Assembly (NCBI RefSeq): GCF_037893185.1
Contig: NZ_CP140772.1
Span: forward strand, 5,766,001 to 5,830,000
Length of the DNA stretch: 64,000 bases
Source of the DNA: Chitinophaga sp. 180180018-3
Lineage (GTDB): Bacteria > Bacteroidota > Bacteroidia > Chitinophagales > Chitinophagaceae
Direction of reading: 5' to 3'
A program made the translations under genes and the position numbers. Positions within the stretch are counted from its first letter, which is position 1. Each line of letters begins with the position of its first letter. Below are positions 831-20,417 of the stretch, piece by piece. The notes below the pieces were generated by a model that saw only the letters and a list, made by a program, of their open reading frames with translations, searched no databases and was not told the DNA's origin.

Positions 831-1064
831 ATGAAAAGAGCAAGCGTGTTACTGGCACTGATAATTTTCTGCGTAGGCGGCGTATTGGCATTCCGCCCCA
901 AAGAATACTATCAGCCCGCCTATGAAGGCGGCAAATGTGTAGTTCCCACGGTTATTTATTATAGCGTGACACCGGATACAGGCATGAATTACCTGCTTGG
1001 CAGGCGGGCTAAACTGGCGGAAACGCCGGGTGACTGCCGGAGCTTTGTTATTATTGGAGAGTAA
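831..1064 (+). CDS. Small exported protein (77 aa), function unknown
   Basis: The product starts MKRASVLLALIIFCVGGVLA, a clear signal peptide with likely cleavage after VLA, leaving a mature domain of about 57 residues. It has two cysteines in the mature part (GGKC and GDC), as do the small exported peptides at 5521, 8329 and 9246. The same order is seen: MK-[RK]-A start, A-x-A-[FY] cleavage region, one Cys near the middle and one close to the C-terminus. Sequence similarity beyond that is weak, so a shared family is an inference. It is followed three bases after its stop by a 42-aa ORF, suggesting a two-gene operon. I do not recognise a named domain. Confidence 0.7.
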   Translation: MKRASVLLALIIFCVGGVLAFRPKEYYQPAYEGGKCVVPTVIYYSVTPDTGMNYLLGRRAKLAETPGDCRSFVIIGE

Positions 1065-5520: not shown

Positions 5521-5793
5521 ATGAAAAAGGCAAAAATAGCACTAGTAGTAATTCTCCTTTCATCCTTGTTAGGTGCATCCTCTGCATACAAATCTGCGAG
5601 AACTCTATATCCATTCTACGCTTACGGCACAACTCTTTCAAATGGGCTACTTTATACCGGTTGCGTAAACCTCAAATGGCTGTCATATACGTCAAACCCT
5701 GACGCATCACTAATAATCACCTATTCGAGCGACTACAATACGGCAGTAAGGGATGCATCGTTATGCACCTGTAGAGTAATCCCAGTTCCCTGA
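5521..5793 (+). CDS. Exported two-cysteine peptide paralog 1 (90 aa)
   Basis: Begins MKKAKIALVVILLSSLLGAS-SA, a signal peptide with probable cleavage before YKSAR; the mature peptide is about 68 residues. It shares with the paralogs at 8329 and 9246 the MKKAK start, the [YF]-[KN]-[AS] mature start, the PF[YF]AYG[ST]T motif (residues 31-38), a TGC cysteine (C48), the YSS-x-[YF]-N-[ST]-AVR motif (residues 68-77) and an LC cysteine (C82), ending in P. It carries one more Cys (C84). This copy is the most divergent of the three and lacks the PGGP insert before the first Cys. No named function is known to me; small Bacteroidota families such as DUF6520 have a similar layout, but membership cannot be checked here. 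It precedes the membrane protein and the thioredoxin gene in the same direction. Confidence 0.75.
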   Translation: MKKAKIALVVILLSSLLGASSAYKSARTLYPFYAYGTTLSNGLLYTGCVNLKWLSYTSNPDASLIITYSSDYNTAVRDASLCTCRVIPVP

Positions 5794-5997
5794 AAACAAC
5801 AACTGCAGTAATTAACAACAGATAAAAATATCAGAAAGTGGTGTAGGCAGGTTGCAGTAGATAGTCCTACCTTAGAGATGATTTAATAACAACGAACCGA
5901 CTTTAGATTATAGAACAAAATAGAGCTCTCGTTAAATTTCTGAAACGTCGTGGTTCGCTAACAAAAAATAATCATTAAACGGTCAATCATATTATTA
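5794..5997 (+). other. 204-base gap between peptide 1 and the membrane protein
   Basis: AT-rich DNA with a weak inverted repeat (GGTAGGACTA-type arms, GTAGG near 5851 and CCTAC near 5868) and no open frame of note. The hairpin has no T-run and may be an attenuator or nothing. Whether the peptide at 5521 is cotranscribed with the gene at 5998 is open. Confidence 0.3.
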
Positions 5998-7641
5998 ATG
6001 GATTCCTTAAGCCATTTATTAAAAAACACCCTACATTTATTTAAGCAACCCCACTTAAATGAAGAAAAGCCAATGGAAGAATTACCTTCAAATTCTTCGT
6101 ATCTTCCTATTCACCCGATCAGTCTAAAGGATTACGTACTCAAAAATCCCACCAATAAGAGGTATTTGATAATTGGCCTAATTACAATTTTTCTACAATT
6201 TACAATCTTTAAATATTTCTACCCTTTCGCAGGTTATATAAATGGAGATTCATATGTTTACCTCGAAACGGCTTATCATAATTTCAGTGTCAATACCTAT
6301 CCGGTTGGTTATTCAAATTTCCTACGGCTTATTAGCGTATTTACGAAATCTGACATAATAGTTGTTGCTATTCAATATCTATTACTACAGTTCAGCGCTC
6401 TATCTTTATTATTTACGCTATTCTACTTTTATTCGCCGGCCAAACTGACTAGAATAATTCTATTCCTATTTATAACAATTAATCCTGCTTCGTTATACCT
6501 TTCAAACTATATATCCAGCGATTGCTTTTTTCTTTCATTGAGTATCGCCTGGTTTACCTTGTTACTCTGGACAATAAGTTACCCTTCAAAAAAACTGATA
6601 TTAATAACCTCCCTGCTTCTTTTCATTGCATTTACAGTAAGGTATAATGCTTTGTTTTATCCAATAATTAGTGTGATTGCATTAGTACTAAGTAGGAAAA
6701 AAATACTTTTAAGCATTGGAGGATTCGCTGTGAGTCTTATTCTAATAGGAATATTCATCATTCATACAAGTAAAACGTACTATAAGCTCAGCGGGTACAA
6801 ACAATTCAGCCCTTTCACGGGTTGGCAACTAGCCAACAATGGAATGTATGCTTACAAATTCGTAGCTCCTAAAAACAGGAAACAGCCCCCCAAAAGATTG
6901 CAGGAACTTGACCAAATGGTTCGAAACTATATTGACTCCACACAGAATTTACAAAAATACCCTTATGAGAAAATAATAGCTGGCACCATTTACATGTGGT
7001 CTCCAAATTCACCTCTCTCAATATACATGAATAAGCAATTCATTAAGGATTCGACTGCCACGGCGTTAACGAAATGGTCCGCCACGGCTCCTATAATGAA
7101 AGAGTATGGGATTTTTTTAATAAAATCTTACCCTAAGGAGTTTTTAAGATACTATTTAATACCTAACGCTGTAAAATACTATGCACCGCCGGTCGAGTTT
7201 TTGGCAGCCTATAGTACCGGAGTAGATAGTGTATCTCCAATTGCAACTGCCTGGTTTGCGTACAAGAGCAACAAAATTAGTTGCCGCTTTAAAGACTTTA
7301 ATGTAAACAACTTAAACTATTATCCAATATTAAGTGGCACCGTTAATGTTCTATTTATCTTTTCATTGTTAAGCTTCATCATGCTCAAAGGATATAAAGA
7401 GCAAATACAATTAACTAAAGGGCTTGGATTAGTAATTGGGCTCTGGATAGTGAACTTTTCATTTAGCGTATTTGCTTCTCCTATTGCGCTGAGGTTCCAA
7501 CTCTTTCCGATACTTACCACGGCTTGCTTTTCTCTGCTGCTTCTAGAGTACCTGATTAAACTTGCCAAAAGCTCGAATCCTGCTACAAGCAATATTTTAA
7601 ACACTTCAACAGAACCGCCGAATATACAGGCGATCAGTTGA
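5998..7641 (+). CDS. Polytopic membrane protein, GT-C glycosyltransferase-like
   Basis: 547 aa with an N-terminal cytosolic stretch of about 55 residues and roughly ten to twelve hydrophobic segments, e.g. YLIIGLITIFLQFTIF, LILITSLLLFIAFTV, LLSIGGFAVSLILIGIFII and LGLVIGLWIVNFSF. The first loop after the first membrane segment holds NGDSYVYLETAYHN, an acidic-residue loop in the position where GT-C enzymes (PMT/ArnT/GT39-like, which use polyprenyl-phosphate sugars) carry their catalytic Asp. A large soluble loop of about 120 residues follows the middle helices. The fold assignment is by architecture only. It lies 17 bases before the thioredoxin-like gene and between exported peptide genes, so a role in modifying the peptides or their envelope target is conceivable but unproven. 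Confidence 0.65.
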   Translation: MDSLSHLLKNTLHLFKQPHLNEEKPMEELPSNSSYLPIHPISLKDYVLKNPTNKRYLIIGLITIFLQFTIFKYFYPFAGYINGDSYVYLETAYHNFSVNTYPVGYSNFLRLISVFTKSDIIVVAIQYLLLQFSALSLLFTLFYFYSPAKLTRIILFLFITINPASLYLSNYISSDCFFLSLSIAWFTLLLWTISYPSKKLILITSLLLFIAFTVRYNALFYPIISVIALVLSRKKILLSIGGFAVSLILIGIFIIHTSKTYYKLSGYKQFSPFTGWQLANNGMYAYKFVAPKNRKQPPKRLQELDQMVRNYIDSTQNLQKYPYEKIIAGTIYMWSPNSPLSIYMNKQFIKDSTATALTKWSATAPIMKEYGIFLIKSYPKEFLRYYLIPNAVKYYAPPVEFLAAYSTGVDSVSPIATAWFAYKSNKISCRFKDFNVNNLNYYPILSGTVNVLFIFSLLSFIMLKGYKEQIQLTKGLGLVIGLWIVNFSFSVFASPIALRFQLFPILTTACFSLLLLEYLIKLAKSSNPATSNILNTSTEPPNIQAIS

Positions 7642-7658
7642 CAACTTCAAAATAAAAA

Positions 7659-8198
7659 ATGAAAGGAAAAATAACAGTAGTATCAATACTTGCTATCTTA
7701 TTAGCAATTCTCTTCTACGAAGGAACAATGGTATTTCAACAAAAAAAAAGCCATGCTAACTATATAAAGCCCATAGTATCAACTCATATAGGGGAACCAG
7801 TCCCTAACATAGAACTTTTATCACCAGAAAGCTCAGTAAACATCAACATAAAAAAAATCACCAATCAACTGCCAACTGTACTATTCTATTTCAGTCCTTA
7901 TTGCCCCTATTGTCAGGCAGAGATAGAAGAAATAGTAAAAAACATCAAACATTTAAAGGAAATACAATTTTTTTTGATAACACCTTATTCACTTAATGAG
8001 CTAAAGATTTTTTATACAAAGAACAATTTGTCTAAATACAAAAACATCGTCGCCGGTGTGGACTATAATAGTTCTTTTCAGAAATACTTTGATGCTCAGA
8101 TCGTACCATATCTTGCGATATATAAGCACGATAAGCTAAAAGGCGCATTTATCGGAAATATGCCATACAGGCAAATCGCCGAGGAGACTGAAAAATAA
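7659..8198 (+). CDS. Membrane-anchored thioredoxin-like (TlpA/redoxin-type) protein
   Basis: 179 aa. An N-terminal membrane anchor (residues about 5-22, ITVVSILAILLAILFY) is followed by a thioredoxin fold. The segment TVLFYFSPYCPYC supplies the redox pair C82-x-x-C85, and IVPYLAIY supplies the cis-proline (P150) in the expected place. Such proteins face the periplasm and reduce, oxidise or isomerise disulfides. The active-site dipeptide PY is also found in glutaredoxins and TlpA-like proteins, so the direction of the reaction cannot be read from the sequence. It is 17 bases downstream of the GT-C-like gene and 130 bases upstream of a two-cysteine exported peptide, which makes that peptide a plausible substrate. 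A decayed copy of its 3' end lies at 9004-9117. Confidence 0.85.
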   Translation: MKGKITVVSILAILLAILFYEGTMVFQQKKSHANYIKPIVSTHIGEPVPNIELLSPESSVNINIKKITNQLPTVLFYFSPYCPYCQAEIEEIVKNIKHLKEIQFFLITPYSLNELKIFYTKNNLSKYKNIVAGVDYNSSFQKYFDAQIVPYLAIYKHDKLKGAFIGNMPYRQIAEETEK

Positions 8199-8328
8199 CT
8201 TGTTGCGCAACATAAAAGTGAACTCGAACCTACGATTTCACACATGGAGAAGCTGAAAACCATTATAAAAGAGTAAGCAATTCACAAACCCTAAAGTTTA
8301 GCTTTTTGACTAAAAAGCAAAATTCACC

Positions 8329-8619
8329 ATGAAAAAAGCAAAATTTGCATTAACAGCGATAGCTGTTCTGGCTGTAATTGGCGGTGCTATGGCATTCAAA
8401 GCTAGCAGGCAACTTAACCCCTTCTTTGCTTATGGTTCTACCAACACAACCACAGCTCCGGGCGGTCCGATAGTGCCAGTTACAGGTTGCGTACTTCCTA
8501 CCCAACTGAGCTATACAACTGCTCCTGGATCAGGCCTTACAATAGCATACTCCAGTACTTTCAATTCTGCAGTTAGAAATTCAGCTCTCTGCACAGCTGA
8601 AGTAATAGCAGTTCCTTGA
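8329..8619 (+). CDS. Exported two-cysteine peptide paralog 2 (96 aa)
   Basis: Signal peptide MKKAKFALTAIAVLAVIGGA-MA with probable cleavage before FKASRQ, giving a mature peptide of about 74 residues. The mature part contains PFFAYGSTNTTTAPGGP, then TGC (C54), a Thr/Ser/Gly-rich middle, YSSTFNSAVR and LC (C88), ending VIAVP. It is about 75% identical to the next paralog at 9246. The Ser/Thr-rich NTTT stretch would suit O-glycosylation, but no known acceptor motif is asserted. The 110-base leader is almost identical to that of the 9246 copy. The double glycine before MA is inside a normal signal peptide and is not taken as a bacteriocin leader. Function unknown. Confidence 0.8.
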   Translation: MKKAKFALTAIAVLAVIGGAMAFKASRQLNPFFAYGSTNTTTAPGGPIVPVTGCVLPTQLSYTTAPGSGLTIAYSSTFNSAVRNSALCTAEVIAVP

Positions 8620-8683
8620 TTAAGGTAAAATTAAAGTGCAGGTAACAAATATCTGTATTTATATAATCCTTAACAAGAGAAAA

Positions 8684-8714
8684 AACCGGCTTATTGGCAA
8701 TCGATAAGCCGGTT
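8684..8714 (-). terminator. Perfect 11-bp hairpin, oriented as a minus-strand terminator
   Basis: AACCGGCTTAT and ATAAGCCGGTT flank a 9-base loop. Six A residues at 8680-8685 abut the left arm, so on the minus strand the hairpin is followed by a T-run; on the plus strand no T-run follows. It would have ended the minus-strand peptidase whose decayed tail lies at 8922-8990, and may also stabilise the 3' end of the peptide mRNA. Confidence 0.6.
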
Positions 8715-8921
8715 GTTATGCTCTTAAGCTTAAAGTATGGGAAGATCTTTTTACAAGCATGATTATTTTAGATACTCCACGGTTATCGAATAATCCTTTC
8801 AGATTTTTAAACGGTAATTCACCAATAAGGTGGTTCCTCTTTTTTACAATGCTCTGTATCTGAAGTAATCTGTCACAACATTTCAATAGAATCATACATA
8901 TTGAACTCTACAATGCAAAAA

Positions 8922-8990
8922 GCCCCATTGTCTGACAACGAGGTTGAATTAATTTCATCCATTTCTGCCTCTTCCAATCATTCATTCCAG
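8922..8990 (-). pseudogene. Decayed C-terminal remnant of an S9 peptidase gene
   Basis: Read on the minus strand this stretch encodes a degraded version of the last residues of the peptidase at 9884-12574 (…EMDEINSTSLSDN versus the intact GFEVDSTSLLAQ end). It lies where the duplication predicts the peptidase 3' end in copy 1. Nothing of the rest of the peptidase is present here. Confidence 0.6.
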
Positions 8991-9003
8991 GGTTCATTAC
9001 ATA

Positions 9004-9117
9004 GATATTTTGATGCTCAGATCGTACCATATTTTGTTATATAACTGCGATAAGCTAGATGGTATACCTATCGAAAATATGCGAATCAATACATTTCCGA
9101 GAAAGCTGAAAATAAAT
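9004..9117 (+). pseudogene. Decayed C-terminal remnant of the thioredoxin-like gene
   Basis: TATTTTGATGCTCAGATCG and the following bases encode YFDAQIVPYFVI then a stop, matching YFDAQIVPYLAIY of the intact gene at 7659-8198 (copy position 8085). The rest is frameshifted but still aligns with the parent sequence up to its stop. It is the left border of duplication copy 2. Confidence 0.75.
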
Positions 9118-9245
9118 TATGTGCAACATAATGTGAACTCGTACATACGATTTCACAAATGGGGAAGCTGAAAACCATTATAAAAGAGTAAGCAATTCAC
9201 AAAAATCCTAAAGTTTAGCTTTTTTACTAAAAAGCAAAATTCACC

Positions 9246-9536
9246 ATGAAAAAAGCAAAACTTACGTTGACGGTGATAGCTATTCTTGCAATAATTGGAG
9301 CCGCCGCGGCATTCAACGCTAACAGGCAACTTAACACTTTCTATGCTTATGGCTCCACTAATACAACTACATCTCCGGGAGGCCCAATAATTCCAGTTAC
9401 CGGTTGTGTAATTCCCTCTCAAATAAGCTCTACAACTTCTCCTGGATCGGGTATTACAATACCCTACTCCAGTGCTTTCAATTCAGCTGTTAGACATCCT
9501 GCTCTCTGCATAGCTGAAGTAGTGCAAACTCCCTGA
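9246..9536 (+). CDS. Exported two-cysteine peptide paralog 3 (96 aa)
   Basis: Signal peptide MKKAKLTLTVIAILAIIGAA-AA followed by FNANRQLNTFYAYGSTNTTT, PGGP, TGC (C54), YSSAFNSAVR and LC (C88), ending VVQTP. Length and cysteine spacing are identical to the 8329 paralog, and differences between them are mostly conservative, so the frame has stayed under selection since the tandem duplication while the flanking gene fragments decayed. That contrast is good evidence that the short frame is a real gene. Function unknown; see the 5521 entry for the shared motifs. Confidence 0.8.
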   Translation: MKKAKLTLTVIAILAIIGAAAAFNANRQLNTFYAYGSTNTTTSPGGPIIPVTGCVIPSQISSTTSPGSGITIPYSSAFNSAVRHPALCIAEVVQTP

Positions 9537-9596
9537 TTAAGGTAAAATCAAAGAGAAGGAAGTAAATACCTGTATCTTATAACCATTAACAGAAAA

Positions 9597-9629
9597 CAAC
9601 CGGCCTATTCACAGTCAATAAGCCGGTTG
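9597..9629. terminator. Bidirectional terminator between peptide 3 and the S9 peptidase
   Basis: CAACCGGCCTATT and AATAAGCCGGTTG form a 13-bp stem with one G-T wobble and a 7-base loop. AAAA precedes it and TAATATTTTTAA follows it, so it can serve the plus-strand peptide and, although more than 250 bases away, the convergent peptidase. It is the copy-2 counterpart of the hairpin at 8684. Confidence 0.6.
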
Positions 9630-9883
9630 TAATATTTTTAAGTATATAAAGAGTTTTTTGCAGATGGTCATTAAATGTATGCTTTATATTTAGATCGCGC
9701 CTGATTATTCTTGGCATTTAACTGTTATCGAATAATTCTTTCAAATTCTTTAAAGATAATTTACAAATAAGGTAACTCATCTTTTCTCAACTAACTTTCC
9801 TTATCTATAGATAAAGTAATCTGTCACAGTATTTCAATACAATTATATACCTATAGGCTTCGAACATTCCAATGTAATAACAG

Positions 9884-12574
9884 TTATTGGGCTAACAATG
9901 ATGTTGAATCTACCTCAAATCCGTTACTATCTCTTTTTAATTGTTCTTTCCTGCTTTGAGTCATCCAAATTGGCGCTGGAAGTCCTTTCAGGTAGTGATC
10001 AAAAAATTGTCTGATCCGAATCGACAAATCAACGGCAGATTCTCCCTGAACTCCATGGCTTCCGTCTGTATACTCTAACAACCACACCTTCTTTCTTAAT
10101 CTACGCAAAGAAATAAAAAACTCAACAGCTTGAGAAAAACTACAGAGCCCATCATTTGTGGTATGCATCAAAAGGAGTGGTGTTGTAACATTTTTAACTG
10201 AAAAGATTGCGGAATTTTCAATGTATTTACTTGGATTTTTTGCTAGGCTCTCTCCGATACGCATTACTCCAAATTCGAGCAACCCTTGCGTATTAGCACT
10301 CTGATTATCCGGAATACTCCCATATGCGCTAACTAAATCCGACAAGGAAGATGCGGAATAAGCAGCAGCAAATAAGTTGCTATGAGTTACAATATAATTG
10401 GTTTCAATCCCTCCCAAGCTACATCCGCCAATTCCCATTCTACTTTTGTCTATAAATGAAAAATGAGACATATAATTTGCTGCAGACGTCACCGCTTCCA
10501 AAGCCCCGCGCATGGGGAAACCAATCTCATAGTCAATATCCGGAGTAAACACGAGATAACCATTACTAACAAACGTCGGGATATTAATTTCACAGCCGCT
10601 AGTTATTATCTCAGGTAAAATATATTCATTTAATGAATAAGATAATTTTTCATAATACTGAAAAATTATCGGGTATTTTTTATTTGGATCAAAATTTTCA
10701 GGCTTATATAATACTCCTTGACCAACGCTACCGTCGCCTCTGGTCCAGGTATGCAGTTCAGTAGTATACCAGTTATAATTCTGTTCAGGATATACATTGC
10801 TCAATTGCCTGAATTTCTTAAAATCAGAGGTATAATAATAATTAGGGCTTTCATTTGCCTTCATTCTTGTCACTAAATATTTCTCGCAACCAGTTGCACG
10901 AATTGGGTAGATTCCTTTATTTACAGTATACTTGTTGTTTATCAGTTGATAGATGTAATCTCCCATAGTTAACAAAACAGGATCTCCCAGTTCTGAAATC
11001 CTTTTTCTAAAATAACCATTCTTCTTGTCCGATAAATTTAATGCGTTTAATATAAGCGATTCGTTTTCAGAAACTACATACCTTCCCCTGCTTCGAAGCC
11101 CGAGGTAAAATACAATATCATTTTTCGATCCAAAACCGTTTGTAATATTAACCGGATGATTTAGCCCTTTCAAATCTACTCGCCATATATCAAATTTATC
11201 ATATAACAAAACAAAATCATCATCATCTTGCCAAGCCGCCACTCCTCTCGGGGCTGCATTAAAATCTTCCCAGCAATAATCCGCCCAATTAGTCTTCACT
11301 CCTTCCGTAATATAATGATATTGTCTGGTAGCAATCTCATAACTTATATAACCTTTCAATTTCCTATTAAAAAAAACAACATATCTTCCCGTTCTAGACA
11401 TCACCGGCAGGACAATATCTTTCAGATAACCCAGTGTCACCTCATTGCCTTTCTTCATAAATTTCAGGACATAGTATATCCTAGCAGAATCATTCCATCC
11501 TTCTTCACACACGTCCCCGTCACCGCTTCTTCTCTCAAGTAAAAGTACATCATTGTTGTAGTCCTCGCCAATTATCCGTTCTCTTTCTCCATTCACCTTT
11601 ACTATAGTACTATCTTCTATATCAAGCAAATTAATATCCATCGAAAATATATCATTATGTTTTACTGGTAATTCTTTTAGCCGCTCATCGAGATAACTCC
11701 ATAGATTCATAGTCGATTTTACACGTTTAAACGATGTTTCCTCTTTTCTTCGAGTATTAAAAGAAAAATATCTATTTTCATCCCCAATTGGAAACAGTGA
11801 GAAAATTTCAGCTGTATTGCCTATTCTATTGTCTCCTTCAGCAATAACCATAAATAGGCCTCGTTTTTCGTTATAGCACCAAATAGAATTCCAATTATCA
11901 GACTTATTTGAAATCAAGAGTAGAATTCTTGAGCACGTTGCATTATAATTTACTTCCTTCAGTCCGTTTCCCTTCCAAATAATTGTCTCCTTGATATCTG
12001 CCAGGTTCACTAAATCTATCATTTCACCTTTTTCTGTCGCATTATACTCGACTTTCAAAATAAGTTTTTTCTTATCCTCACTAAATTGAAATTCTTCAAC
12101 ACCCAAATAACTCTTATGAAGACCCGACTTAATATTTAACAGTACAACTTCATTTCTTCGGTTTCTATAAGCAATCCAGCTAGCATCTTTAGAAGCATTT
12201 AACTTAAACTCCGTAACATCTGGGATCGTGGTCTCGTGATGGCCTCCTAACTTAAGAATTACTAAAGAGTCCCCAGGTTTTAACAACACAATTGATTTAC
12301 TGTCACCAGTAAAGATCCCCAATCCACAAGGAGTTACCTTTTTCTCCCACTTCCCCTCGCATTGTTTAATGACTAGTGTACATTGATGCAAAGGTTCATT
12401 GTTAACAACATAGCTCATATACATTCCATTATCAGATATAGATGCGTCACCAACGGATGCCCATTTATCATGAGACAAAGAATTAATAACCGGCTTTGTC
12501 TGCTGCCCCTGAGCGTTTATGCTCATTAACAAAACAAAAAGTAGGATTATTCTAAAAATATTACACACTTTCAT
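9884..12574 (-). CDS. Secreted S9-family (prolyl oligopeptidase-like) serine peptidase
   Basis: 896 aa, signal peptide MKVCNIFRIILLFVLLMSINA-QGQQ. Residues about 30-620 look like a degenerate beta-propeller. The C-terminal alpha/beta hydrolase domain holds the nucleophile elbow GIGGCSLGG (Ser719), an Asp in LLLMHTTNDGLC and a His in EYTDGSHGV, the complete S9 triad. S9 enzymes cleave oligopeptides, often after proline or with a dipeptidyl-peptidase preference. The three neighbouring exported peptides contain several prolines and end in VP or TP, so they or their precursors are possible substrates; this is inference. It converges on the peptide cluster and is divergent from the SusC gene, sharing its 297-base promoter region. 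AT-rich like its neighbours. Confidence 0.85.
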   Translation of the reverse strand: MKVCNIFRIILLFVLLMSINAQGQQTKPVINSLSHDKWASVGDASISDNGMYMSYVVNNEPLHQCTLVIKQCEGKWEKKVTPCGLGIFTGDSKSIVLLKPGDSLVILKLGGHHETTIPDVTEFKLNASKDASWIAYRNRRNEVVLLNIKSGLHKSYLGVEEFQFSEDKKKLILKVEYNATEKGEMIDLVNLADIKETIIWKGNGLKEVNYNATCSRILLLISNKSDNWNSIWCYNEKRGLFMVIAEGDNRIGNTAEIFSLFPIGDENRYFSFNTRRKEETSFKRVKSTMNLWSYLDERLKELPVKHNDIFSMDINLLDIEDSTIVKVNGERERIIGEDYNNDVLLLERRSGDGDVCEEGWNDSARIYYVLKFMKKGNEVTLGYLKDIVLPVMSRTGRYVVFFNRKLKGYISYEIATRQYHYITEGVKTNWADYCWEDFNAAPRGVAAWQDDDDFVLLYDKFDIWRVDLKGLNHPVNITNGFGSKNDIVFYLGLRSRGRYVVSENESLILNALNLSDKKNGYFRKRISELGDPVLLTMGDYIYQLINNKYTVNKGIYPIRATGCEKYLVTRMKANESPNYYYTSDFKKFRQLSNVYPEQNYNWYTTELHTWTRGDGSVGQGVLYKPENFDPNKKYPIIFQYYEKLSYSLNEYILPEIITSGCEINIPTFVSNGYLVFTPDIDYEIGFPMRGALEAVTSAANYMSHFSFIDKSRMGIGGCSLGGIETNYIVTHSNLFAAAYSASSLSDLVSAYGSIPDNQSANTQGLLEFGVMRIGESLAKNPSKYIENSAIFSVKNVTTPLLLMHTTNDGLCSFSQAVEFFISLRRLRKKVWLLEYTDGSHGVQGESAVDLSIRIRQFFDHYLKGLPAPIWMTQSRKEQLKRDSNGFEVDSTSLLAQ

Positions 12575-12871
12575 TTCTAAACAGTTTGGAATTTCTTAAC
12601 TCTGTATTACTAGCAGATAATTTATGTAAAACAACTGCATCTATTCCGCAATCAACCACATTTATTCTCGATCGTTGCCCCAAAATCATTATCCAGGATT
12701 ATCTCCAATACGTCAAGCATTAATACAAGTCACCTTTCTAAAAAGTACCATGCAACAGATATAAAAAATCGCTGAGACCTAAAATAAATACGATCTATAG
12801 TACTGACGATACACTTAGAGTGTAGAATAATATATAACAGTCTTCTTCCTGTTTCGCATAAAATAGTTCTT
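12575..12871. promoter_or_regulatory. Divergent promoter region with composite CTATAGTAC/GTGTA motif
   Basis: The gap between the S9 peptidase and susC contains CTATAGTAC at 12795-12803, then 16 bases, GTGTA at 12820-12824 and AATATATAACA. The same arrangement occurs twice before the AraC-type regulator (20517-20545 and 20578-20605), with spacers of 15 and 14 bases. TACACTTAGAGTGTA at 12810-12824 is itself a short palindrome. It lies about 50-75 bases before the susC start codon. No gene is seen in this stretch. Confidence 0.5.
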
Positions 12872-15800
12872 ATGAGAAAAAAAATAAAACCTACGACACT
12901 TATGATAAAACATATAGTAATATATATTCTAGTCAATTTACACGCATTTACACAAATCAAAGCCGAAGTAACACGACAGGCACCCAGGATTACCATTGCA
13001 GGCAATAACATGCCAATAGAAGTTATATTCAATAAAATCAAGGAGCAAACGGGATTTACTGTCATTAATAATTTATCAGAGACACAACTAGATAAAGAAA
13101 AAAAAATAACTATCAACTTCCATAATGCAGAAATATCAGAAGTCATGAAGGTACTTCTCGGCGAACAAAAAAATCTAACCTTCACATTAATAGATTCGCA
13201 AATCATTATTCATAAAAACAAACATCTCCCATCGGAATTTGCTACACCTTCAGATACAATTCCCAACGCGGAAAAACTCTATGGAAAGATAACTGACATT
13301 GATGGTATGCCCATCCCTGGCGCTTCTATTAAATTAAAAAACACCAAGTCAGGCGCTATATCAAATGTTGATGGAAGATTTGCATTATCTGGTTTTACCA
13401 GTGGATCGATGATATCCGTTACTTGCATTGGATATGAATCCAAAGAAGTAACGGTCAAAGAGAAGAATATTTTCATTCAACTGAAAAATCACACCAATCT
13501 TCTAGATGAACGGGTAATTATTGCATACGGCAGTACTACCAAGCGATTCAATACCGGAAATATCAACGGGTTAAAAGCTTCTGATATTGAAAAACAACCA
13601 GTAAGCAATCCCCTGGCTGCTTTACAAGGACGCCTCCCAGGTGTATATATTAGTCCGGCAAGTGGGTTGGCGGGATCTGGCATGACTATACGAATACAGG
13701 GTATAAATAGTTTTTATAATGGTAGTGACCCTTACTTCGTGATTGACGGAGTTCCGTATGTTTCCCAGCTTCTTCCCACAAAGAATACAATAACCGGAAC
13801 ATCTGGAGTTTCGGGAGTCTCCGGTAATCCTCTCAATTATATAAATCCCGCTGATATCGAAAGTATAGAAGTGCTGAAAGATGCAGATGCAACAGCAATT
13901 TATGGCTCCCGGGCTGCAAATGGGGCTGTACTTATTACAACCAAAAAAGGGAAACCTGGTCCCCTTGCAATATTCGCTCAGTTTGAGCAAGGATGGTCAA
14001 AAGTACCTCGCAAAATGAGCGTTCTTAACAACAAACAATACCTAGAAATGCGTAAAGAGGCACTTAGAAATGACGGCAAAACTCCGGGGTCTTTTGATTG
14101 GGACTTAAATGGCACCTGGGATACTACACGTAATATTGATTGGCAAAAAGAGCTAATCGGAGGAACTGCAGGATATACAAATGCCCAGGTAAATATCTCT
14201 GGAGGAAGTCCGTTAATTCAATTTCAGGCAGGTGGAGGATATCGTAAAGAAACGAATGTATTTCCGGGCTCTTATTCTGATACCAAAGGCAGCGCTCATA
14301 TTTCAGTTAACAGCAACTCGGGAGACAATAAGCTAAAAGCCCAGGTTACCGGGTCATTTACATTTGATAACAATGGGCTTCCACAAGTTGATTTTACCAG
14401 CGCGGCACTCACATTATCACCGGTAGCCCCCCCCCTCTATACATCCAATGGGCTAGTCAACTGGGCACCCAATCCGACCAGATCAAGTACTTTCTTTTCA
14501 AATCCAGTTGGCAAGCTTGGAGTAAAAACCGTAAATAAAACAAGTAATCTACTAAGTAATATGATGCTTAGCTATGAATTTCTTCCCGGACTGCTCGTTA
14601 AAACCAGTCTTGGCTATAATAGCTTGTACACAACTGAAACCGCCTTAAATCCCACAAGTGCAATGCCTCCTGAGTACGCCAGGTATTTCTCTAATAGCAG
14701 CAATTTTATATTTAATCGTATCAATTCATGGATAGTCGAGCCCCAAATGGAATACAATCATCATATTCTTGATGGTAGTCTTAAGGCATTAATCGGTTAT
14801 ACTATCTCGCAACAAAATAGTGATCAGCAGAATATTTTCGCCGTCGGCTTCCCCAATGAGCTGGTTATGCAAAATCTTGGCGCAGCTACCAAACTAACGG
14901 GATCAAACCTTAACTCCATATACAAATACAATGCTATATATGCCCGAATTACCTACAATTGGTTAAACAAATACATTATAAATTTAACTTCCCGAAGAGA
15001 TGGCAGTTCTCGTTTCGGATCTCAAAATAGTTTCCACAATTTTGGAGCTATCGGACTTGCATGGATTTTTACTGAAGAACCATTTATTCATTCCCTTATT
15101 CCTATTCTTAGCTATGGTAAACTAAGAGGAAGTTATGGTACTACAGGAAATGACCAAATAGGAGATTATAACTACATGGATACTTATGTTCCTGTTATTG
15201 TACAGGGTCCTCCCTATCAAAATTCCTTAGGTTTAACTCCCAACCAACTAACCAATCCATATCTTCAATGGGAGTCTACAAAAAAACTCCAATTTGGAAT
15301 AGAGTTAGGATTTTTAAAAGATGCTATCCTGTTTACAGTAAACTACAATCAAAATAGATCCTCTAATCAATTAATGGGTTTCAACCTACCTTCAATCACC
15401 GGTTTCGGCAATATTACGAGGAATATTCCCGCTACAATCCAAAATAGCGGATGGGAGTTTACTATTACTTCCAATAATATCAAATCTAAAGCATTCTCCT
15501 GGTCAACTAATCTGAACTTAACCATTCCTAAAAGTGTCGTAGCTTCTTACAATGGAGATGACAAAAACAGAACTTTTTTTGTTGGAAAGCCATTATTGTC
15601 CAGCCTTTATCTTGACTTTGCCGGTGTGGACGAAAAAACCGGGCTATATCAATTCAGAGATGCCAAGGGTAACCTAACCAGCAATCCTTCTATTCCTGAT
15701 GATTATATCATACTAAGAAACACTGACACGAAGTTCTATGGAGGGCTTCAAAACACATTCACTTATAGGAATTTTTCACTGGATATATTCCTGCAATTCA

Positions 15801-16210
15801 CCAAGAAACCTGGCAGAGATTTCTATAGTTATGGATTCAATCCAACAAATCCAGGATTATTCAATGCCGGACTAAGTAACCAGCCAACTTACATTTTAGA
15901 TAGATGGCAGCATCCTGGGGATAAAGCCGCTACTCAAGAATATACCAGCAACTACGTAAATATGTTAAACCTGTCAAACAGCACTGCTGTTCTAACCGAT
16001 GCGTCTTTTATAAAACTAAAAAATATCTCTCTTTCATGGAGGTTACCTGATTCTTGGAATAAAAGAATCCACACACAAGAAATAAGAATCTTCTCCAATG
16101 CACAAAATATATTAACACTAACGAAATATAAAGGATTAGATCCCGAAATCCAATCCATGTCGCTTCCACCACTTCGAACAATTGTATTCGGATGTCGTGT
16201 GACTTTATAA
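12872..16210 (+). CDS. SusC/RagA-type TonB-linked outer-membrane transporter with STN domain
   Basis: 1112 aa. After the leader (cleavage near TQIKA-E) come an STN secretin/TonB short domain (residues about 40-115, MPIEVIFNKIKEQTGFTV), a CarboxypepD_reg domain (about 130-205, YGKITDIDGMPIPGASIKL), a TonB plug (about 215-360, with LQGRLPGVYI, DPYFVIDGVPY and ESIEVLKDADATAIYGSRAA) and the barrel. The STN domain usually talks to a FecR anti-sigma protein, but no fecR or sigma gene is present in this block. It imports a SusD-captured ligand across the outer membrane with TonB energy. It is followed 30 bases later by its susD. AT-rich composition matches the island. Confidence 0.93.
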   Translation: MRKKIKPTTLMIKHIVIYILVNLHAFTQIKAEVTRQAPRITIAGNNMPIEVIFNKIKEQTGFTVINNLSETQLDKEKKITINFHNAEISEVMKVLLGEQKNLTFTLIDSQIIIHKNKHLPSEFATPSDTIPNAEKLYGKITDIDGMPIPGASIKLKNTKSGAISNVDGRFALSGFTSGSMISVTCIGYESKEVTVKEKNIFIQLKNHTNLLDERVIIAYGSTTKRFNTGNINGLKASDIEKQPVSNPLAALQGRLPGVYISPASGLAGSGMTIRIQGINSFYNGSDPYFVIDGVPYVSQLLPTKNTITGTSGVSGVSGNPLNYINPADIESIEVLKDADATAIYGSRAANGAVLITTKKGKPGPLAIFAQFEQGWSKVPRKMSVLNNKQYLEMRKEALRNDGKTPGSFDWDLNGTWDTTRNIDWQKELIGGTAGYTNAQVNISGGSPLIQFQAGGGYRKETNVFPGSYSDTKGSAHISVNSNSGDNKLKAQVTGSFTFDNNGLPQVDFTSAALTLSPVAPPLYTSNGLVNWAPNPTRSSTFFSNPVGKLGVKTVNKTSNLLSNMMLSYEFLPGLLVKTSLGYNSLYTTETALNPTSAMPPEYARYFSNSSNFIFNRINSWIVEPQMEYNHHILDGSLKALIGYTISQQNSDQQNIFAVGFPNELVMQNLGAATKLTGSNLNSIYKYNAIYARITYNWLNKYIINLTSRRDGSSRFGSQNSFHNFGAIGLAWIFTEEPFIHSLIPILSYGKLRGSYGTTGNDQIGDYNYMDTYVPVIVQGPPYQNSLGLTPNQLTNPYLQWESTKKLQFGIELGFLKDAILFTVNYNQNRSSNQLMGFNLPSITGFGNITRNIPATIQNSGWEFTITSNNIKSKAFSWSTNLNLTIPKSVVASYNGDDKNRTFFVGKPLLSSLYLDFAGVDEKTGLYQFRDAKGNLTSNPSIPDDYIILRNTDTKFYGGLQNTFTYRNFSLDIFLQFTKKPGRDFYSYGFNPTNPGLFNAGLSNQPTYILDRWQHPGDKAATQEYTSNYVNMLNLSNSTAVLTDASFIKLKNISLSWRLPDSWNKRIHTQEIRIFSNAQNILTLTKYKGLDPEIQSMSLPPLRTIVFGCRVTL

Positions 16211-16240
16211 ACGGTAGACAATATTGTTAAAACTGATCAT

Positions 16241-17680
16241 ATGAATTTCCAAGCTATCATAAAAAAAAGGGCTCGCCTTAGTATATTTTTAATGCTAATT
16301 ACATTTGCTTTTACTGATATAAACTGCAAAAAAGCAATTGATGTAAATACTCCAACCACCAGCATTGACAGTAAAAATGTTTATACCAACAATAAAACAG
16401 CAGCAGCAGTTCTTACAGGTATTTATGCAGGAATTAGCACCAATACACCCCTCTCTCAGGATTTGGTTTCCATCGGTCTTAGAACAGGTCTTTCCAGCGA
16501 TGAATTGGTCCTTTATAGCGGATCAGATGATCAATCATTAAGAACGTACTATCAAAATAATTTAAGCCCATCGGAGATGGTATCTCTTTGGCAAATATTG
16601 TATAACAAACTATATGTAATCAATGCTGCAATAGAGGGTCTAAATAATTCAACAGGTCTCGATCCATCGTTAAAAAAGCAATTGCAAGGGGAAGCCAAAT
16701 TTATGAGAGCATTCGTTTTGTTTTACCTGACTAATTTATATGGGGATATTCCTCTTGTAACCAGTATTGACTATACGGTCAACTATGTTCTGTCAAGAAG
16801 CTCCCAACAACAAGTATTTGTACAAATCATATCCGATCTCAAAGAATCTCAAAATCTATTATCATCCGATTACTTAGATGGAACAATACTATCCAATACT
16901 AAAGAAAGGGTAAGACCGACCAAATGGGCTGCCATCGCTTTACTAGCCAGATGCTATCTATATACGCATGATTGGGAAAATGCAGAATCTCAGGCCAATT
17001 TTGTCATAAACAATACCGCACTTTATAATTTAGAGTCCCTGGATAGAACCTTCTTGATGAATAATAGAGAAGCAATCTGGCAGCTACAACCAGTTAACCA
17101 AGGGGCGAATACTGAAGATGCAAAAACATACATTATCCCACCAGAAGGCCTGGGCTTCCTAAATCCTGTATACTTAAGTGACCACCTGCTCAATAGTTTT
17201 GAGCTTGGGGATCAACGAAAATCAAAATGGATTGATACAATTACATCCGGAGGAACGCTTTACTATTTTGTATATAAGTATAAATCTGCAGTATTCAATG
17301 CCCCCGTTACAGAATATCACACAATATTCCGATTAGCGGAACAATATCTGATTCGGGCAGAAGCGAGAGCGCAACAAAACAATATCAACGGTGCATTGGA
17401 GGATGTAAATACCATTCGAAAAAGGGCGCAGCTAAATCCACTAAATATCAGTAACAAGGATGATCTGTTAACGGCCATTTACCACGAACGACAAGTTGAG
17501 TTATTTACTGAATGGGGGCATCGGTGGTTCGATCTGAAAAGAACTCAAACAGTCAATGGAATCATGTCGAAAGTCACTCCTGAAAAGGGAGGAACATGGA
17601 GTCCTAACTGGCAGTTTTATCCAATACCGGCTAATGACATCAAAATTGATGGTAACCTAATTCAAAATCCGGGATATTAA
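16241..17680 (+). CDS. RagB/SusD-family outer-membrane lipoprotein
   Basis: 479 aa, signal sequence with a probable lipobox ending DINC (Cys29). Typical SusD features are the helical TPR-like repeats (LQGEAKFMRAFVLFYLTNLY and GDIPLV), the LARCYLYTHDWENAESQA repeat, the late ERQVELFTEWGHRWFDLKRT signature and the terminal FYPIPANDIKIDGNLIQNPGY. It partners the SusC gene 30 bases upstream. The ligand is not identifiable; the neighbours argue for either a glycan (GH2 gene next) or a peptide (S9 peptidase on the other side). Confidence 0.93.
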   Translation: MNFQAIIKKRARLSIFLMLITFAFTDINCKKAIDVNTPTTSIDSKNVYTNNKTAAAVLTGIYAGISTNTPLSQDLVSIGLRTGLSSDELVLYSGSDDQSLRTYYQNNLSPSEMVSLWQILYNKLYVINAAIEGLNNSTGLDPSLKKQLQGEAKFMRAFVLFYLTNLYGDIPLVTSIDYTVNYVLSRSSQQQVFVQIISDLKESQNLLSSDYLDGTILSNTKERVRPTKWAAIALLARCYLYTHDWENAESQANFVINNTALYNLESLDRTFLMNNREAIWQLQPVNQGANTEDAKTYIIPPEGLGFLNPVYLSDHLLNSFELGDQRKSKWIDTITSGGTLYYFVYKYKSAVFNAPVTEYHTIFRLAEQYLIRAEARAQQNNINGALEDVNTIRKRAQLNPLNISNKDDLLTAIYHERQVELFTEWGHRWFDLKRTQTVNGIMSKVTPEKGGTWSPNWQFYPIPANDIKIDGNLIQNPGY

Positions 17681-17735
17681 TTAAAAAAATTGAAAAGAAA
17701 TAATATATATGAAGGGAAAATACGATTTAACCATT

Positions 17736-20417
17736 ATGAAAAAAAAATCACTATTACTAGTATCCAGCTTAATGACGTTAGCCTGTTATAGCCAGACAAC
17801 TGCAACAATGCACAACAGCAATATTCTCAACATTCCATTACAATCCAGGTGGGTCAAAGAGGTCAATCAGGATCATCCACTTAACAGTTACCCACGGCCT
17901 CAATTGCAACGTTCCAACTGGCAGAATCTGAATGGTCTTTGGGAATATGCAATCACAGACTCTATCGTTAACTATCCTGAAAACTACAACGGAAAAATCT
18001 CAGTTCCATTTCCGATTGAATCAGCGCTCTCGGGCGTACAAAAAACTCTGAAACCAGAAAATCGTCTATGGTATAAAACAAACTTTCTAAAACCCTCTTT
18101 AACTGTAGGTGAAAGAATTGTGCTGAATTTCGGTGCCGTAGATTGGCAGGCCACTGTTTTTATTAATGGCAAACAGGTAGGCGTACATTCCGGAGGGTAT
18201 CAAAGTTTTTCATTTGACATTACCGATTATCTAAAAAACGGTGATAACGAACTTCTCGTAAAAGTATATGATCCAACTGATCAAGGCATTAATCCCCATG
18301 GCAAGCAAACACTCAGTCCTGCTAATATTTACTACACTCCGTCCAGTGGAATATGGCAAACTGTATGGCTAGAAAAAGTTCCTGAAAATCATGTCAATCT
18401 CTTGAAAGTAGTACCGGATATCGACAAAGGCACTCTTAACGTCAATCTCAATTCAGTTGGGAAAGGAGAAGCTATCATAGTTGAAGTGGAAGCACTGGAA
18501 AATGGTAAAAAAGTAAGCACTGCAAGCTCAACTCTCTATCATAATAAAAGTGAATCAATAAGTTTGCAATTAAAAATACCAAATGCCCGATTATGGTCTC
18601 CAGATGATCCATTTCTTTATGATCTGAATGTTAAGCTTATAAAAAGTGGTCATATAGTGGATAATGTAAAGAGTTATTTTGGGATGCGGAAAATAGATAT
18701 ACAAAAGGATAGAAATGGGTTTGACAGGATATTTCTGAACAATAAGTACACTTATAACCTTGGTACACTAGATCAGGGTTTTTGGCCAGAAGGTTTATAT
18801 ACCGCTCCTACCGATGAGGCACTGGCATTTGACATCAAAACTATTAAATCCCTCGGATTCAATACAATCAGAAAACATATAAAAATTGAACCAGATCGAT
18901 GGTATTACTATGCAGATAAAATCGGAGTATTGGTATGGCAGGATTTTGTTAATCCACCTCATAATCTGCCTGATGGCTCTAAAGTCATATTTGAGAAAGA
19001 AGTGAAGGAAACAATGAACCAGCTATATAATCACCCGAGTATAGTAACCTGGGTACTATTTAATGAACGTTGGGGTGCTTATGATCAAGAGCGGTTAACC
19101 AAATGGGTAAAATCTCAGGATCCATCCAGACTAGTTAATGGCCATTCGGGAGAACTCTTGTACGTAAATGACCAATTAAGGTTCCCTTCAGATCACCCCT
19201 GGATTAGCAGTGATATGACAGATGTACACTCCTACCCAGATCCCCGTGATGTACCAACCCTGCCGGGAAAGGTCAAAGTCATTGGCGAATACGGAGGCAT
19301 TGGCGTTCCCGTTCCAGGACACGAATGGGATGATGTGCAAGGATGGGGCTACGTGCAGGGAACTGCCAGCGAATTGAAAAATAAGTATACCCAAATGGTA
19401 GGAGAGCTCAAGAACCTCGAAACGAAAGGATTAAGTGCCTCTATCTATACCCAGCCATTTGATGTAGAAGGAGAAGAAAATGGACTACTTACTTATGACA
19501 GAGAAATCATAAAAATTCCGGTCAATGAAATACGAGCTATTAACCAACAATTGGTGCCCTATACTCCTGGCTTCTCCCTGGATCCAAGATTTAATATTGC
19601 TACAAATATCGATATAAATGATAACGATGGAAGATACCAGGAATTTCTTGGAGAATATCGGAATGGGAAGCGAGACTCTGCGTTCCTGAGACGACTAGTT
19701 TTAATCAGTTTACGCAAAAAAAATCAGGAGATGTTAACCCAAGCAGGTAACGACTATATCAGCATGCTAAAAGCTCCATTTTCAAAAAACAATCTTGAAT
19801 TCATAAGTGGTATTACCATGACAAGTAAGGATAAAGGATTCGAAATGTTTCTGAAGAACCCCGATAAAGTTGATGTAGCGCTTTACACAAACGCAGCTCG
19901 AAGGAAGGTATGGACCATCATTGACAAAGAAGAAGTAGCTCCTTTTACTAAAGGCACGCCTGATTGGAACACCATTCAGCAAAGGGTTATTAATAAATTT
20001 GGAAATATAGGGGAAGAACTGGTGCTCGGAAGACGCATGTTTTACTATGGCAATGTGACTAAGGATTGGGATAACTATGGAAAATACTATAAACAATACT
20101 TTGAAAAGGCCATGACACATTCTGAATATCATATCAATAACGCAACCTGGCCCCTTTTCGAAAACGTCACAGATACCAATATCCTTAAATTCGCTGCCCA
20201 GGTCATGAAATACGATCTTGACCACTTCGATCAGGAGAACACAGAAGCATACGACACATACGCCAATCTTCTCTACAAGCTCAACCAAACCAGTGAAGCC
20301 ATAAAATGGGAAGAAAAGGCCCTGGAACGCAAAAAAGGCGCACCAGATGAAAAAATATACGCCGACGTCCTCCAAAAAATGAAATCCGGCCAGCCAACCT
20401 GGCCCACCAAAAACTAA
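17736..20417 (+). CDS. GH2-family glycoside hydrolase with extra C-terminal helical domain
   Basis: The start is set at the ATG at 17736, which gives the signal peptide MKKKSLLLVSSLMTLACYS-Q (893 aa); an ATG nine codons earlier adds nothing useful. Residues about 30-620 are a GH2 protein: jelly-roll sugar-binding domain (FGAVDWQATVFINGKQVG), Ig-like domain, then a TIM barrel with acid/base Glu444 in FNERWG and nucleophile Glu518 in VIGEYGG. The barrel closes with the usual YDREIIK ending. Residues about 630-893 are an additional helical domain (YQEFLGEYRNGKRDSAFLRR…), which I associate with the C-terminal region of Bacteroidota thioredoxin-family proteins; no CxxC thioredoxin core is present. 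The fold of the tail is inference. Activity could be beta-galactosidase, beta-glucuronidase or similar. Confidence 0.85.
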   Translation: MKKKSLLLVSSLMTLACYSQTTATMHNSNILNIPLQSRWVKEVNQDHPLNSYPRPQLQRSNWQNLNGLWEYAITDSIVNYPENYNGKISVPFPIESALSGVQKTLKPENRLWYKTNFLKPSLTVGERIVLNFGAVDWQATVFINGKQVGVHSGGYQSFSFDITDYLKNGDNELLVKVYDPTDQGINPHGKQTLSPANIYYTPSSGIWQTVWLEKVPENHVNLLKVVPDIDKGTLNVNLNSVGKGEAIIVEVEALENGKKVSTASSTLYHNKSESISLQLKIPNARLWSPDDPFLYDLNVKLIKSGHIVDNVKSYFGMRKIDIQKDRNGFDRIFLNNKYTYNLGTLDQGFWPEGLYTAPTDEALAFDIKTIKSLGFNTIRKHIKIEPDRWYYYADKIGVLVWQDFVNPPHNLPDGSKVIFEKEVKETMNQLYNHPSIVTWVLFNERWGAYDQERLTKWVKSQDPSRLVNGHSGELLYVNDQLRFPSDHPWISSDMTDVHSYPDPRDVPTLPGKVKVIGEYGGIGVPVPGHEWDDVQGWGYVQGTASELKNKYTQMVGELKNLETKGLSASIYTQPFDVEGEENGLLTYDREIIKIPVNEIRAINQQLVPYTPGFSLDPRFNIATNIDINDNDGRYQEFLGEYRNGKRDSAFLRRLVLISLRKKNQEMLTQAGNDYISMLKAPFSKNNLEFISGITMTSKDKGFEMFLKNPDKVDVALYTNAARRKVWTIIDKEEVAPFTKGTPDWNTIQQRVINKFGNIGEELVLGRRMFYYGNVTKDWDNYGKYYKQYFEKAMTHSEYHINNATWPLFENVTDTNILKFAAQVMKYDLDHFDQENTEAYDTYANLLYKLNQTSEAIKWEEKALERKKGAPDEKIYADVLQKMKSGQPTWPTKN

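Follow-up and report, generated by a model that had tools for sequence, protein, structure and literature searches.

Lasso-peptide isopeptidase loci (NF033523) bring together an S9 hydrolase, a TonB-dependent receptor and a peptide. Among ribosomally synthesised and post-translationally modified peptides (RiPPs), Sec signals are rare on the precursors; the bufferins carry one on a Cys-containing precursor, and a DoxX protein is reported in many of their clusters (PMC12452194). In Bacteroidota, including Chitinophaga, PMC12636315 describes the chryseobasin/DAG-RiPPs, whose small precursors have Sec signals (for signal peptidase I or II) and whose clusters frequently contain SusC/SusD, one such cluster also having a secreted prolyl oligopeptidase. 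Several of these features recur in the locus considered here, found in a 64,000-nt stretch (hereafter the window) of the Chitinophaga sp. 180180018-3 genome (8.13 Mb, one contig), where small cysteine-bearing peptides with Sec-type leaders are encoded beside a membrane protein of GT-C glycosyltransferase fold, a redoxin, an S9 peptidase, a SusC/SusD pair and a GH2 glycosidase. We give about an even chance to the reading that a conserved cassette, of which this locus would be one copy, produces an exported RiPP-like peptide and later recovers it: the cassette seems to make small Thr-rich exported peptides, which are probably modified outside the inner membrane and perhaps taken up again. A search of the open-licence literature returned no description of such a system, nor any paper on two elements discussed below, the DUF6520 peptide family and the DUF805b RNA. 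A preliminary description, based on the letters of the window, had located the genes correctly, as re-checking of open reading frames (ORFs) and domains confirmed, and had proposed that they form one system; the RNA element, the LanKC-like variants, the parallel MauE/DUF6520 layout and the genus-wide scale reported below were absent from it.

Is this gene neighbourhood conserved, or fortuitous? At 34 loci chosen by their peptide, S9 was found at 32, GT-C at 19, redoxin at 20 and SusC or SusD at 24 (L126, the peptide-less continuation of L063, is outside these 34 but inside earlier region counts). Five related genomes supplied 20 control regions, at preset positions; none of these held a peptide, GT-C, redoxin, LanKC, MauE or S9, and SusC was present in 5/20 (one redoxin-like and one S9-like match fell under thresholds), thus the grouping of peptide, GT-C, redoxin and S9 is not due to chance. 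As GT-C and redoxin are present at only 19 and 20 of the 34 loci, neither is required locally at every peptide; a GT-C relative nevertheless occurs somewhere in 36 of the 38 peptide-positive genomes, versus 24 of the 110 peptide-negative ones, so that a single GT-C gene may act in trans for several peptide loci of its genome. The preliminary description had put its idea at risk if peptides occurred mostly without the redoxin or GT-C gene: the conserved gene set is borne out, the presence of both genes beside each peptide is not, and the interpretation as a whole is partly supported.

A larger scan, with a GT-C alignment against one genome per species (84,980 species), returned 77 loci; it was seeded by two conserved stretches of peptide-linked GT-Cs, and close relatives are favoured. 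Where GT-C identity is at least 45% (61 loci), a peptide is found at 55, a redoxin at 59, S9 at 45, SusD at 36, SusC at 31, MauE at 22, a GT-C fused to a flavin domain at 24 and a LanKC-like protein at 6, with the S9 and SusC/SusD counts as lower bounds because contig ends cut several loci. The order GT-C, redoxin, peptide on a single strand is kept at 42 of these 61 loci. A short encoded precursor thus adjoins the candidate modifying enzyme at most of the loci chosen by GT-C, but at only 19 of the 34 chosen by peptide. Loci L050-L069 and the window supplied the training sequences of the family hidden Markov models (HMMs), with some loci of L059-L060 and L100-L121 used for extra families, and several locus sets were chosen from longer match lists, mostly best-scoring first. 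As many Chitinophaga loci of the larger scan coincide with training loci, the 26 loci bearing other names are its independent part: these hold a peptide in 24 cases, a redoxin in 25 and the conserved order in 22, and belong to Niastella (12), Longitalea (5), Puia (3), Olivibacter (2), metagenome-assembled genomes named Flavihumibacter (2), Mucilaginibacter (1) and Chitinophagaceae (1). Between 40 and 44% identity (6 loci), peptides are found at three, Pedobacter paludis and Paraflavitalea among them, and below 40% (10 loci), peptide, redoxin, S9 and RNA element are at zero, with SusC at 4, MauE at 2 and LanKC at 2. Altogether, a module with GT-C and peptide is found in eight named genera.

The three window peptides have a leader in common and, behind it, a mature part with two cysteines, to which peptide 1 adds a third Cys; it is 51% and 46% identical to peptides 2 and 3, respectively, which are 72% identical to each other. 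With a three-sequence profile, members of their family were found in 38 of 148 genomes (including the source genome), all of the same genus, with at most 12 matches per genome (reached in genome G035). A protein search returned 13 proteins, of which two are from the window itself; the three with a named organism are all assigned to Chitinophaga, and a broader HMM, trained on Chitinophaga loci, detects the family in further genera too. Precursors are about 75-130 aa long, with a well conserved Sec-type leader (approximately MKKAKFALTAVAVLAVIGGALAFKANR), a conserved FKANR just after the point where cleavage is likely, as judged by eye, and a mature part that is variable and rich in Thr, its cysteines mostly paired. 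Mean identity is 51% in the leader and 23% in the mature part (1200 pairs of 87 peptides; of 98, six misfit the leader frame and five are shifted), and a leader-only profile recovers 118 of the 126 family members at GT-C-seeded loci, versus 39 of 126 for a mature-only profile. As the leader is conserved while its fourfold degenerate sites stay near expectation (0.405 vs 0.361), the constraint is mainly at the protein level, and DNA-level conservation or gene conversion was rejected as chief cause of the constant leader. The dN/dS ratios of 0.18 (leader) and 0.22 (mature part), from 77 non-independent peptide pairs, indicate that the genes are real and evolve under purifying selection; a core driven by positive selection was rejected. 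An even number of cysteines follows residue 22 in 164 of 170 distinct peptides (14 of these with zero), and Thr makes up 20.3% of the mature parts (98 peptides), versus 6.3% in random-region proteins, 14.9% in 36 peptides adjoining LanKC genes and 8.0% in seven DUF6520 peptides of other families. Comparison of the peptide model with solved structures gave no match, an absence that carries little weight.

The window GT-C has no Pfam or NCBIfam match, and its transmembrane GT-C fold, close to that of protein O-mannosyltransferases (PMT-like), was found by structure comparison, giving the original "GT-C-like" label support from the fold. Asp84, in an NGDSY motif, is invariant in seven aligned GT-Cs, and by analogy it may be the acidic catalytic residue of the first outer loop. 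Relatives often have a GT-C fusion in which a flavin amine-oxidase-like domain comes first (Pfam PF01593; NCBIfam NF005546, over its cut-off). That GT-C would move a sugar from a lipid carrier to peptide Ser/Thr is plausible as a model, and the proposal that the peptides are glycosylated keeps the PMT-like fold and the 20% Thr on its side, while Thr is not raised in peptides beside a GT-C, and a local GT-C is anti-associated with GH2. Oxidation of the peptides, also proposed initially, finds indirect support in the even cysteine counts; the redoxin CxxC and the peptide cysteines do not co-vary (p = 1.0), and their co-loss was looked for and rejected. In several module redoxins (L059, L066, L103, L274 and others) CPYC is replaced by CPYS, a monothiol site. 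Truncation of the window redoxin by a stop codon was considered and rejected, since its end agrees with that of relatives.

On the retrieval side, the S9 gene is convergent with peptide 3, as first described, and its catalytic triad occupies aligned columns with Ser in 111/111, Asp in 109/111 and His in 111/111 sequences. The SusD and GH2 domains were confirmed by Pfam; the SusC(STN) assignment stands for SusC, whereas the STN match is weak (E-value 0.016, 15.4 bits vs a cut-off of 28.4). Taken together, these parts suggest the following route. The precursor would leave the cytoplasm by Sec, its conserved leader possibly docking it to the membrane GT-C; at the periplasmic side of the inner membrane, the disulfide might be set by the redoxin (or by a MauE homologue), and the PMT-like GT-C would place a lipid-carried sugar on threonines. 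The product would then be released from the cell and captured by its cognate SusC/SusD, and S9, with GH2 or thioredoxin/TPR partners, would trim or degrade the captured peptide. The most likely role for such a peptide is that of a retrieved extracellular binder or signal. GH2 as counter-enzyme of GT-C was rejected: as the two are anti-associated at peptide loci, GH2 is not simply its counterpart.

The DUF805b RNA (RF02914), which lies over its gathering score 5' of peptides 2 and 3, would control the main peptide genes from the mRNA leader. A DUF805b profile built on 15 training copies outside the window family found the element ahead of 38 family genes out of 98, at 30 of 48 loci, and ahead of 11 of 64 other small signal-peptide genes (two training copies, those of the L100 and L108 peptides, recur among these 11, and "small signal-peptide protein" follows a rough rule of our own, which also fired in 6/20 random regions), versus 0 of 339 random-region genes and 0 of 109 other genes at peptide loci. 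At GT-C-seeded loci, the gene downstream of the element is a peptide in 51 of 53 cases. Among 30 arrays with at least two family peptides, the element leads one copy in 16, two in 8 and none in 6; as element-led copies have better leaders (consensus match of 19.0 vs 13.7 of 27 residues) and mostly exactly two Cys (35/38), an array would seem to hold one or two main copies alongside paralogues in decay. An AT-rich hairpin (stem of at least 6) precedes the start codon of 50 of 98 peptide genes, versus 10.1 in shuffles. Pseudoknot covariation in the family-peptide copies was not retained (pairing of 0.964 and 1.000 vs shuffled means of 0.932 and 0.956), in a test that is weak because the copies are mostly identical and the regular expression pre-selects pairing. 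Exclusive association with small peptides was also rejected: in 40 DUF805b loci, 22 with a CCGAAAACC-type loop precede small ORFs (at most 96 aa) and 17 with the loop CCGAAAAGCC precede larger ORFs (at least 149 aa), a possible functional split of the RNA family, which was read by eye on the best-scoring matches (a subset of L225-L257; L223 was removed as a spurious below-cut-off match). The source genome holds seven sites over cut-off, including the two of the window and one before a LanKC-associated peptide at 2339429. The element also stands ahead of a 61-aa double-glycine-type precursor (L227:9352-13179, G000:C1 ~4003352), probably part of a separate natural-product cluster; this precursor is followed by a 433-aa protein and by another protein that, by its motif, looks like a peptidase-containing ABC transporter. 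Between rpsJ and an outer-membrane protein gene (L226:9095-11229, G000:C1 ~6427095-6429229), five ORFs for hydrophobic peptides of 21-28 aa lie in tandem, with a DUF805b copy some 22-24 nt ahead of each; two of these copies score below cut-off.

Related layouts occur with other enzymes and peptides. Some relatives' clusters add, beside redoxin, GT-C and peptide, a RamC_N-kinase-LanC protein, homologous to class III/IV lanthionine synthetases; these LanKC-like homologues score under the NCBIfam cut-offs (360-362 vs 650) and the LanC zinc ligands WCxG and CHG are present in 0 of 23, class III lanthionine enzymes likewise not being known to have them. Other LanKC-type loci encode different small peptides in a similar layout, with MauE or a redoxin, an AraC regulator, TlpA/DsbD_N/S8 and SusD/SusC. 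The sole RamC_N match of the source genome (2336414) is at such another peptide locus, L100:7025-19901 (G000:C1 ~2334000-2346900), with MauE, redoxin, two small peptides, a TlpA-like protein, DsbD_N, SusD and SusC; a second GT-C homologue lies at 2348511. Two peptides beside LanKC-like enzymes (L101:11997-12266 and L102:11878-12138) have no Cys, hence no lanthionine can form within them, and the enzyme may there only phosphorylate or dehydrate. DUF6520 is scarce (9 of 247 genomes of a sample of the class, E-value 0.001), and all seven sites over cut-off outside the genus (L195-L201) have MauE, one small peptide (with four Cys after residue 25 in six of the seven), a convergent S9 (S8/TlpA at L201), SusD and SusC. 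Of two weaker sites retrieved, L203 has a partial layout (MauE, peptide, SusD, SusC, TlpA-like) and L202 has none. These DUF6520/MauE loci are perhaps the ancestral form of the module.

A number of observations weigh against a cassette that makes, modifies and retrieves its peptide. GT-C is absent at 15 and redoxin at 14 of the 34 peptide loci, and 20 GT-C-chosen regions of related genomes, picked down a longer GT-C list, hold a family peptide in only 10 cases (redoxin 15, S9 8, SusC 14); those without a peptide include distant GT-Cs, and L158-L161 combine a flavin-domain GT-C fusion, MauE, redoxin and a GH2-type protein with no family peptide. Of 7 loci with a Cys-less nearest peptide, 6 retain the redoxin CxxC, which is missing at 11 of 58 loci where that peptide bears Cys (p = 1.0; three of the redoxins without CxxC seem to have a wrongly placed start or an odd frame). 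The Thr content of peptides near a GT-C is 0.180, vs 0.218 for the others, and peptide loci with GT-C have a GH2 in 2 of 19 cases, vs 8 of 15 for those without GT-C (p = 0.01). Furthermore, 60 of 98 peptide genes have no detected DUF805b element, no outer-membrane exporter was recognised, and the conserved leader, which is unusual for a plain Sec signal, could be a cytoplasmic RiPP leader. Could the two sides of the locus then be unrelated, a peptide operon lying by chance or shared regulation beside an ordinary peptide or glycan utilisation locus? SusC is common enough in random regions, and the anti-association of GH2 and GT-C would fit, but S9 stands at nearly every peptide locus and at none of the control regions, and the convergent S9 (or S8/TlpA) plus SusC/SusD layout recurs at DUF6520 peptide loci of other families, which makes this explanation very improbable.

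If the two sides do belong together, the peptides might serve another end than retrieval. They might be antagonistic, bacteriocin-like products entering competitors through SusC/SusD-type receptors, with the local SusC/SusD, S9 and GH2 for kin uptake or self-protection: in the source genome and relatives, RiPP-like precursors of double-glycine type and hydrophobic peptides of 21-28 aa also lie behind this RNA element, a lanthionine synthetase homologue stands at some loci, and mature parts diverge strongly among loci. Purifying selection acts on these mature parts among close relatives, however, and an arms race leaves no trace at this scale; the S9 triad is unbroken and constant, and no immunity gene came to light, although no search aimed at one was made; we regard antagonism as unlikely. 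The compact beta structure that AlphaFold2 predicts after the signal helix resembles a small folded protein more than a linear toxin and, with the FKANR conserved past the likely cleavage point, would suit a cell-bound envelope component (a glycosylated, disulfide-bonded coat or a SusC/SusD accessory), periplasmic or on the surface, with S9 for turnover only. Tandem arrays with divergent mature parts and mostly one or two RNA-led copies would be unusual for a structural subunit, and the partners are import machinery, so that this alternative appears improbable as well. The reading as a make-and-retrieve cassette is the one we favour.

The features of the window are listed in Table 1. Peptides 2 and 3 are held in a tandem duplication of about 918 bp, whose second unit starts with a decayed redoxin 3' fragment. 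Homologues of the OMP_b-brl_3 protein occur at 9 of 20 peptide loci of the initial set, and AraC relatives with stronger scores than the window's adjoin other clusters.

Table 1. Features of the locus in the window (G000:C1:5766001-5830000); position 1 is the first letter of the window.
Feature	Position	Strand	Evidence or remark
Divergent fourth peptide, 77 aa, two Cys	831..1064	+	Family HMM 23.4 bits; SusC/SusD pair upstream
Outer-membrane beta-barrel protein, OMP_b-brl_3 and carboxypeptidase-regulatory domain	2547..5216	-	Pfam PF14905 75.8 bits
Peptide 1, 90 aa, signal-peptide-like leader, three Cys	5521..5793	+	DUF805b element not detected
GT-C glycosyltransferase-fold protein	5998..7641	+	Fold nearest protein O-mannosyltransferases
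TlpA/MauD-like redoxin, CPYC, N-terminal membrane anchor read from sequence	7659..8198	+	Pfam Redoxin 28.2 bits (cut-off 26.6)
DUF805b RNA (RF02914), 5' of peptide 2	8243..8279	+	cmscan 36.5 bits (gathering score 35.6)
AT-rich hairpin, immediately 5' of peptide 2 start codon	8301..8318	+	
Peptide 2, 96 aa, two Cys	8329..8619	+	AlphaFold2 prediction: helix 2-26, beta strands after, pLDDT 84
Inverted repeat 3' of peptide 2	8684..8717	.	Repeat search; not called by terminator scan
Decayed redoxin 3'-end copy inside second tandem unit	8992..9082	+	Direct repeats D5/D6, 85% and 72%
DUF805b RNA (RF02914), 5' of peptide 3	9158..9194	+	cmscan 42.9 bits
AT-rich hairpin, immediately 5' of peptide 3 start codon	9218..9235	+	
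Peptide 3, 96 aa, two Cys	9246..9536	+	ORF and paralogue comparison
Inverted repeat 3' of peptide 3, terminator-like for minus strand	9595..9628	.	Repeat and terminator scans
S9 peptidase (prolyl oligopeptidase family), N-terminal signal by eye	9884..12574	-	Pfam PF00326 74.7 bits; triad Ser719/Asp808/His840
SusC/RagA TonB-dependent importer	12872..16210	+	TIGR04056 654 bits; solved SusC relatives
SusD/RagB family protein	16241..17680	+	PF07980 101.5 bits
GH2-family glycosidase	17709..20417	+	PF02837/PF00703/PF02836; C-terminal part like relatives' short TPR proteins
AraC-like regulator, weak	20714..21730	+	HTH_18 E-value 0.0023, below cut-off; ARAC family HMM 36.6 bits (threshold 40)

Should the make-and-retrieve reading hold, a genus with up to a dozen family peptides per genome would have a way of making, modifying and recovering secreted peptides that RiPP mining keyed to cytoplasmic enzymes would probably miss; SusC/SusD pairs would gain a self-made ligand, part of the unexplained DUF805b RNA family would gain a function, and leader, RNA, GT-C and S9 would together offer a genome-mining handle for new glycopeptides. 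A wider proposal, which we put forward tentatively and would sooner expect to fail than to stand, is an undescribed natural-product class of Sec-exported peptides, whose threonines a dedicated PMT-like GT-C (with flavin oxidoreductase and redoxin) would O-glycosylate in the periplasm, and which would be DUF805b-controlled and recovered by a cognate SusC/SusD and their own peptidase. GT-C and LanKC-like versions would then be interchangeable ways of modifying Thr-rich cores in one make-and-retrieve scheme, shared by several families of the class, and the DUF805b copies bearing the CCGAAAACC loop would mark a secreted-small-peptide regulon. Even if the chemistry is wrong, the GT-C and peptide module of eight genera is a testable unknown.

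How does the locus finally stand beside the systems described so far? For lasso peptides, NF033523 is the best NCBIfam match of the window S9, yet at 54.9 bits vs a cut-off of 400, and no lasso B or C gene was found among ten window proteins scanned. The likeness to class III/IV lanthipeptides lies in the LanKC/LanL homologues of relatives' clusters; the difference is that the window cluster has no such synthetase and that some of the peptides are Cys-less. DUF6520 (PF20130) resembles the family by a weak match to the leaders of peptides 2 and 3 (19.2 and 17.0 bits; peptide 1 has none) and by its parallel MauE/S9/SusC/SusD layout elsewhere, but both matches are below the cut-off of 25.4 and confined to the leader, no GT-C is found at those seven DUF6520 loci, and the source genome has no DUF6520 over cut-off. 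Bufferins are MNIO-modified copper chelators, and SusC and MauE go unmentioned in the text of PMC12452194; a MauE of the module narrowly passes the Pfam DoxX cut-off (24.1 vs 23.6 bits). Chryseobasin (PMC12636315) is modified by a cytoplasmic MNIO acting on a CPACGMG motif, whereas the window has a membrane GT-C, a redoxin and Thr-rich paired-Cys cores. The source genome has three MNIO (PF05114) genes (1019903, 7236596 and 7582095), none of them within 1 Mb of the window locus (5.77-5.79 Mb), and a classification of the window as a lanthipeptide or MNIO cluster was rejected, no such enzyme being present locally. The locus thus shares its design with Sec-signal, SusC/SusD-linked RiPPs, and differs from them in its enzymes, its cores and its RNA control.

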